The position numbers and the translations under genes are program-made. From Polynucleobacter necessarius (lineage in GTDB: Bacteria; Pseudomonadota; Gammaproteobacteria; Burkholderiales; Burkholderiaceae), in NCBI RefSeq assembly GCF_900095185.1, contig NZ_LT606948.1:558001-622000 (forward strand): a stretch of DNA of 64,000 bases, read 5' to 3'. The notes under the pieces are model-generated. The model was given only the letters and a program-made list of their open reading frames with translations. It was not told the origin of the DNA and searched no databases. This document shows, in pieces, positions 50,500-51,873 of this stretch; the first letter of the stretch is position 1, and every line of letters starts with the position of its first letter.

Positions 50500-50517
50500 A
50501 TCTTTATGATTGCACTA

Positions 50518-51123
50518 TGAATATCACTCGATTTTGCTTGGTTCGCCATGGAGAAACCGACTGGAATGCTGCGCGTCGCCTACGCGGTCATACCGCGATA
50601 TTGATTTAAGTACTCGTGGATATGCACAAGCTATCCAAATGGCTCGGGCTCTCAAACACATCGATCTTCAACGAGTAGCAAAAACTGCTGAAGCAATCGA
50701 GCGGGTATTTGAAACTGATGCTATCCAAAACGCCGCACTAAGAGAACGCCATCTTGGCATGCTACAAGGACTTACCATGGATGAGACTCCCAAGCAAGAG
50801 CCTGAACTTTGGAAATCGCATCTCAACAGCAATCTAGATGAAAATTTGCGTAATGGAGAAAGCATGCAGCAATTTGCAGATTGCATCAAAATCGTTCTCG
50901 AGCAAATCCGCAAACAACATATTGGCAAAACCATCTTGCTTGTCAGCCATGGTGGTGCATTAGATATGATGTACAGAATTGCCAGCAATCAAGCCTGGGA
51001 TGCCGAAAAGGCTGTTGCAGTTCTCAATGCCTCTCTCAACTGGATCAGTCATGATGGGCTTGGATGAAAGGTCGATGGGTGGGCTGATACTAGCCATTTG
51101 AACGTGCTAGCTCTTGATAATTT
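50518..51123 (+). pseudogene. Histidine phosphatase (phosphoglycerate mutase family), broken
   Basis: ATG 50518 starts MNITRFCLVRHGETDWNAAR with the catalytic RHGET, then stops at a TAA after a shift near 50593. The next frame has RDIDLSTRGYAQAIQMARAL, a small internal loss before RVAKTAEAIERVF, and the second catalytic His in LLVSHGGALDMMYR. A TGA follows GLG before KVDGWADTSHLNVL. Several lesions rule out full function. Confidence 0.83.
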
Positions 51124-51180: not shown

Positions 51181-51375
51181 TTATGTTCTGACTGTCTGCA
51201 ATTTATTTTGCTCTGAAATACAAAAATCTACAACTACATCAGCAAAGTCTAAATAACGCGAGTTACTTTTTCTAAAACTGTCGATCTCAGCAGACAAAGG
51301 AGAGACTGAACTCTTAAATGCAGCGTCTTCGTAGCCAGGGTGATATGGAGCCTCTTCAACAAATTGATTAGTCAT
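51181..51375 (-). CDS. Short ORF downstream of the glycine riboswitch, unknown
   Basis: From ATG 51375, with GAAGG eight bases upstream, it encodes 64 residues: MTNQFVEEAPYHPGYEDAAF, later LSAEIDSFRKSNSRYLDFAD. The frame is open upstream for a few codons beyond ATG but meets stops before the riboswitch. It is the only open frame after the tandem glycine riboswitch on this strand. I recognise no family; it may be a gene remnant rather than a gene. Confidence 0.35.
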   Translation of the reverse strand: MTNQFVEEAPYHPGYEDAAFKSSVSPLSAEIDSFRKSNSRYLDFADVVVDFCISEQNKLQTVRT

Positions 51376-51506
51376 ACATTTACCTTCATTAGTTGGTGCC
51401 AAAAATGAATACTCATTCTGGAATACAGCATTGAATTGAAACCGCGTGAACGGTAATTAAAAGCGAGCAGGCTATTGAATTGGAATTTGCATCGTGACTC
51501 TCCTAA

Positions 51507-51747
51507 AGCAGCCCATCCTTGACATGAATAGACCATGCTGATGGGATGCTGCTCCCCCTGGCCCTGAGCCCTGAGAAATTCACCCTAAGCTCTGCTGAGG
51601 GCTTGCTCCTTCGGTGCACCATGAAAATTGTGACTCTCCAGATGACTATTTAGGATAAGCAGCACCTTCCTGGTGGATACCTGAGCGTTCATGGGAGTTT
51701 GTGCGCCTTCGGTGGAGAAATTTATCTCACTCTCCTGCTTGAGAAAA
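51507..51747 (-). promoter_or_regulatory. Tandem glycine riboswitch with 3' hairpin
   Basis: On the minus strand two aptamers follow each other. The first (about 51736-51660) has GGAGAG, CCACCGAAGGCGCA, and CGCTCAGGTATCC. The second (about 51618-51553, led by CTGGAGAGTCAC near 51640) has GCACCGAAGGAGCAAGC and TCTCAGGGCTCAGGG. These are the GGAGAG / CCGAAGG-GCA / CUCAGG blocks of the glycine riboswitch. A stem of AGCAGCATCCCATC against GGATGGGCTGCT (51553-51507) follows and may be the expression platform; GGAG and an ATG at 51492 come next, with a stop six codons on. The usual target (gcv operon or a glycine permease) is not recognisable. Confidence 0.85.
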
Positions 51748-51774
51748 TTATAGCCCGGGACACACTGCATCAAA
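51747..51774 (-). promoter_or_regulatory. Promoter of the glycine riboswitch transcript
   Basis: A consensus TATAAT at 51752-51747 lies just before the riboswitch, with TTTGAT at 51774-51769 as a -35 candidate at 16-base spacing. The -10 overlaps the stop of the dehalogenase remnant. Confidence 0.6.
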
Positions 51775-51873
51775 TGCTTGCCCATGACCTGGAAATAGCT
51801 CTTCTGCCAATTCTCCCATTGAATGCACATCAAACAATGTTCCATAGGCATCGAATGCTATGAGCTTATACAT
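51748..51873 (-). pseudogene. N-terminal remnant of a type II haloacid dehalogenase
   Basis: ATG 51873 opens MYKLIAFDAYGTLFDVHSM, the DxYGT nucleophile motif of HAD-family 2-haloacid dehalogenases, continuing LAEELFPGHGQAF to a TAA at 51748. Only 41 of about 225 codons remain. The rest has been replaced by the riboswitch region, pointing to a deletion whose 3' junction lies near 51760. Confidence 0.65.

Follow-up and report, generated by a model that had tools for sequence, protein, structure and literature searches.

A tandem glycine riboswitch paired with a minimal upstream reading frame and a genus-restricted small protein in Polynucleobacter

The locus and its tandem glycine riboswitch

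We examined a 64,000-nucleotide stretch of a Polynucleobacter necessarius contig (hereafter, the window). The original prediction had recognized two glycine aptamers in tandem and had proposed a search with the Rfam glycine model (RF00504) as a check. This search returned two covariance-model matches, both above the gathering score of 32 and separated by a short linker, indicating the tandem arrangement of RF00504. They constitute the sole glycine riboswitch of the 1.66 Mb genome. The other landmarks described earlier, namely TATAAT directly upstream (51752–51747), a downstream hairpin (51555–51505), a dehalogenase remnant of 41 codons upstream, and a 64-residue open reading frame (ORF) downstream (51375–51181), were likewise present. 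The features of the locus, from upstream to downstream, were as follows:

51748..51873, minus strand: remnant (5′ part) of a gene resembling type II haloacid dehalogenases, which a deletion has apparently joined to the riboswitch promoter
51769..51774, minus strand: -35 element TTTGAT, 16 nt from the -10 element and bordering the upstream deletion; TTTGAT-16-TATAAT also occurs in L118 and L174–L177
51747..51752, minus strand: -10 element TATAAT, three positions of which are among the alignment columns invariant in relatives
51655..51747, minus strand: glycine aptamer 1 (RF00504, 35.5 bits), with 2 nt inserted near 51701–51704 and A replaced by G in the GGTAC core
51548..51651, minus strand: glycine aptamer 2 (RF00504, 38.8 bits), with positions substituted that relatives hold constant, GGAC to GGCC among them
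51505..51555, minus strand: H1, a predicted expression-platform hairpin, from folds of the window and most relatives tested
51500..51503, minus strand: putative Shine-Dalgarno sequence GGAG of the upstream ORF (uORF); (G)GGAG lies 5–8 nt before the ATG in 52 of 53 distinct leaders, and GAGAG is found in L138
51472..51492, minus strand: six-codon uORF, MQIPIQ plus stop, whose start and stop are held while the internal codons vary
51385..51479, minus strand: H2, a predicted long-range stem UUCAAUAG/CUAAUGAA that spans the uORF stop and reaches the small-ORF Shine-Dalgarno sequence (fold of L112)
51383..51387, minus strand: putative Shine-Dalgarno sequence GAAGG of the small ORF, read from the sequence; AAGG or similar is found there in most leaders
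51181..51375, minus strand: conserved small protein of 64 aa, with the motif EAPYHPGYED followed by a predicted long helix; 61 of 151 Polynucleobacter genomes carry a homologue

Scanning the relatives for glycine riboswitches distinguished two classes. The first is associated with gcvT (L008, L009, L011, and L019) or with dadA-like oxidoreductase genes; the second, to which the window belongs, occurs in varied genomic places with no long gene directly behind it; when this class was aligned, all members proved to have the same small frame downstream. Both contain the same RF00504 tandem, whereas members of the gcvT/dadA class sit close to their enzyme gene and not to a uORF and small ORF. In L003, L005, L006, L010, and L026, the tandem lies near a dadA-like FAD oxidoreductase gene, an association that perhaps reflects a glycine-oxidation route in some Polynucleobacter. 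A further tandem, in L004 (G001), stands directly before a ketopantoate-reductase-like gene. The window also holds an SAH riboswitch (RF01057; 15868–15979, minus strand; 47.7 bits, above its gathering score).

RF00504 riboswitches of the gcvT type in Bacillus and the transporter type in Vibrio resemble the window in having two consecutive aptamers in a 5′ leader, their own promoter, and a competing expression-platform hairpin, and a survey of glycine riboswitches deals with glycine cleavage (GCV) and transport (TP) as their contexts (PMC6944388). The window differs from these types in its target, apparently a genus-restricted small protein rather than glycine cleavage or transport, and the Polynucleobacter unit adds a conserved six-codon uORF and a bridging hairpin. 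Among the papers searched, none dealt with a glycine riboswitch in Polynucleobacter.

The small ORF and the uORF

The original prediction had seen no recognizable intact target and had suggested that relatives be compared to identify the gene that followed the riboswitch; this comparison led to the 64-residue ORF itself. Using the window ORF as the query, we found homologues in 61 of 151 Polynucleobacter genomes (62 loci). Glycine aptamer motifs were located upstream in 54 of these loci, belonging to 53 genomes, in which the tandem riboswitch stands ~130–340 nt ahead of the small ORF, and the pairing holds across several unrelated gene neighborhoods; as the sequences are related, locus and leader counts are not independent events. 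Purifying selection on the small ORF was strong, with pairwise dN/dS of 0.01–0.10 overall (0.01–0.08 within the window's clade, 0.05–0.10 for the window against relatives, and dS often >1), and the motif E8-A-P-x-H-P-G-Y-E-D17 was invariant among homologues. Because the ORF is conserved and follows the riboswitch in 53 genomes, the riboswitch appears to have a target, namely the frame previously called unrecognized, and across the genus the small ORF is the conserved partner of this riboswitch. Among the options considered earlier, control of the small ORF thus gained support, although not as a recent re-assignment.

The eight loci without upstream aptamer motifs form one subclade (L166–L173) with a conserved GGAGG close to the small-ORF ATG in those loci that were read out; in the five of them that were scanned, no glycine aptamer was found within about 2.5 kb of the small ORF. 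G161 holds two riboswitch–uORF–small ORF units (L142 and L161) in different places and with different proteins. In a profile search of 300 Burkholderiales genomes from 134 genera, the small protein was found in Polynucleobacter alone. Searches of Pfam and NCBIfam and a tblastn search against plasmids and phages gave no match, a PDB profile search returned nothing usable, and PHROGs gave weak matches, the best having an E of 0.008 over 29 residues to a family of unknown function. AlphaFold2 predicted one long helix (residues 26–63) and a low-confidence N-terminus.

We then considered glycine metabolism. The glycine cleavage P protein (PF02347) was above the cut-off in 25 of 151 genomes, and the small ORF was present in none of these 25; the chance of finding no overlap is 5e-7 if genomes are independent, but the lineages are related. 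This mutual exclusion suggests a place for the small protein in a different route of glycine handling. In the window genome, neither PF02347 (gcvP) nor PF01235 (Na/Ala-Gly symporter) was found, serine hydroxymethyltransferase is present, and the gene behind the riboswitch is the small ORF, not a glycine cleavage gene or an Na/Ala-Gly symporter.

The ATG at 51492, which follows GGAG and is closed after six codons, had been regarded as a broken start. The frame is indeed there; however, it corresponds to a conserved uORF, which is 5–6 codons long in 51 of 53 distinct leaders and retains its Shine-Dalgarno sequence, start, and stop in 52. Its length is six codons in 47 leaders, five in four, and sixteen in one (L140); L158, with 81 nt between riboswitch and small ORF, is the sole riboswitch-bearing leader lacking it. 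The 47 six-codon uORFs start with ATG (46) or GTG (1) and stop with TAA (32), TAG (14), or TGA (1), and the fifteen internal bases are variable. When changes were counted by parsimony on the tree of the ORF, the start positions showed 1, 0, and 0 and the stop positions 0, 1, and 5, against an internal mean of 8.2; every change in the stop codon yielded another stop codon. As start and stop are held while the internal codons are free, the uORF appears to be selected for starting and stopping translation, not for its peptide sequence. It neither overlaps nor adjoins the small ORF, the distance usually being 55–108 nt.

Hairpins and proposed mechanism

The 5′ strand of H1, GGAGCGGC, overlaps the 3′ strand of aptamer-2 P1, CAGGGGG, and the 3′ end of H1 adjoins the uORF Shine-Dalgarno sequence. 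Folding of L142, L146, L154, and L156 yielded no clean H1. An intrinsic terminator after H1 was set aside, as the stem is followed by just 3–5 U and the window had no terminator flagged at this place. In H2, a TTCAGTAAG-like arm directly after the uORF stop pairs with a CTTACTGAA-like arm just before the small-ORF Shine-Dalgarno sequence. Across 42 leaders from outside the clade of the window, in-register pairing holds for 73% of cells, compared with 19–49% when the arms are slid by 1–4 columns, and compensatory changes, such as C-G to T-A, were seen. When the arms were reshuffled among genomes, the observed level was reached in 1 of 2000 cases; relatedness inflates this figure, and the shuffled mean of 0.695 comes close to the observed level. 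The in-register test failed in the window's clade (40%), where folds predict another H2 register that includes the UAG stop. Comparison thus argues for H2 pairing outside the window's own clade.

Conservation of the riboswitch–uORF–ORF linkage and coding selection on the ORF are well supported by the sequence comparisons. We consider it probable that the locus is a self-contained glycine-responsive unit consisting of a promoter, tandem aptamers, H1, a coupled uORF, H2, and a genus-restricted protein of ~62 residues, and that its sensor is weakened in the window. We infer the coupling between the uORF and ORF and the glycine-driven switching step as follows. Glycine binding would stabilize aptamer-2 P1; as P1 and the base of H1 would both draw on the GGGGGAG strand, H1 would be shortened, and ribosome access to the uORF would change. 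Ribosomes ending the uORF at the foot of H2 would stand beside the small-ORF Shine-Dalgarno sequence, where they may reinitiate or displace H2, such that output of the small protein would follow translation of the uORF. As to the sign, our guess is an ON switch in strains that lack glycine cleavage. When leaders folded with P1 forced were compared with free leaders, Shine-Dalgarno access showed no change consistent between sequences, and folding did not decide between ON and OFF; the switching step and its direction are therefore put forward as proposals. The 16-codon uORF of L140 and the H2 register of the window's clade also count against the coupling model.

The nearest precedent is the B12 riboswitch of Mycobacterium tuberculosis ppe2, the leader of which also contains a uORF; there, translation of the downstream gene proceeds mainly by termination-reinitiation from that uORF (PMC11260477), whereas in Polynucleobacter dependence on reinitiation is a proposal. 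In ppe2, the stop of the uORF and the downstream start overlap in AUGA, and the uORF encodes a product of ~6 kDa (PMC11260477), whereas the Polynucleobacter uORF comprises 5–6 codons, lies usually 55–108 nt from the small ORF, and is bridged to it by H2 in most clades. The ligand is B12 in ppe2, whereas the Polynucleobacter unit is of the glycine class.

Decay of the window copy and competing explanations

Although the tandem had been described as intact-looking, alignment revealed nine substitutions at 139 positions invariant in relatives and a 2-nt insertion in aptamer 1, and the RF00504 scores were ~36–39 bits compared with ~45–60 bits in relatives. The relatives showed 0–1 changes at the 139 positions, except L138 (7), L158 (13), and L141 (37); this comparison sets aside L158, whose leader is atypical, and L141, whose aptamer 1 is unrecognizable. 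Core nucleotides conserved in close relatives were retained in free-living relatives and not in the window copy, and these core changes point to an RF00504 member in decay without calling its descent from that family into question. Both the uORF and the small ORF are open in the window. As the aptamers have mutated while these two frames stay open, the sensor appears to be decaying ahead of its target. Glycine control in the window genome is probably weakened or lost, and expression from the retained promoter may continue. A second reduced genome of 1.7 Mb (L138 and L179, G121) has decayed in parallel: detection of its aptamer 1 is lost, the Shine-Dalgarno sequence is altered, and the ORF has a stop at 55 codons.

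The surroundings have also changed. In L174, L175, and L177, a full-length dehalogenase-like gene (227–232 aa) is located about 1.8–2.1 kb upstream of the riboswitch; in the window, 51 bases stand in place of this distance, joined at TTTG, a microhomology common to the dehalogenase gene and the promoter -35 region. Compared with relatives, ~1.8–2.1 kb up to the riboswitch promoter appears to have been deleted, which would explain the remnant. A histidine phosphatase-like gene (50510–51067, plus strand), convergent with the small ORF, has a frame that breaks after RGHT where relatives continue. From the genome size of 1.66 Mb and the broken genes, we take the lineage to be reduced and probably a ciliate symbiont.

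Several other explanations were weighed against the coupled unit. The small ORF has its own Shine-Dalgarno sequence and L158 has a riboswitch without a uORF, as would be expected under direct riboswitch control of the small ORF, with the six-codon uORF an uncoupled by-product of a conserved ribosome-binding or standby site. We regard this as unlikely, albeit credible, because the uORF start and stop are held (GTG and TGA/TAG substitutes included) at a length of 5–6 codons with variable internal codons, and the stop falls at the foot of H2. It is also rather improbable that the window riboswitch is still fully functional and its changes are tolerated variants: both aptamers pass the gathering score; however, 9 of 139 invariant positions are changed, with the 2-nt insertion, compared with 0–1 in nearly all relatives, and the GGAC motif of aptamer 2 is among the changes.

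The original prediction had also raised another use of the RNA, for which no positive evidence was found. A mainly trans-acting, glycine-sensing small RNA, to which the ORF would be secondary, would suit the monocistronic organization of the unit and the presence of its own promoter at varied locations, yet the amino-acid-level constraint on the small ORF and its persistence without a riboswitch in L166–L173 make this very unlikely. The remaining option, an orphan riboswitch that outlived its gene with downstream frames arising by chance, agrees with the frameshifted histidine phosphatase, the truncated dehalogenase, and the aptamer mutations. However, the downstream ORF is kept in 61 genomes with pairwise dN/dS ≤0.1 and has the same riboswitch partner in 53, and the reverse was seen, i.e., the gene is preserved and the sensor mutated; we consider this option extremely improbable.

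Returning to the coupled unit, we tentatively propose in its fullest form that a glycine riboswitch acts through a minimal, sequence-indifferent uORF of 5–6 codons and a ribosome-carrying hairpin to control a genus-restricted glycine-homeostasis protein in gcv-less Polynucleobacter, and that the sensor is being lost before its target in the window genome; this full version may well not hold in every part. The glycine riboswitch itself is of a known kind; what is new here is the small-protein target, previously unrecognized, and the conserved minimal uORF. In a genus described as abundant in fresh water (PMC5069759), the riboswitch flags a new glycine-linked small protein, the link to glycine resting on the riboswitch. 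The unit is a compact natural system in which to study riboswitch action through a minimal uORF, and the window copy is a testable case of a regulatory RNA decaying before its target.
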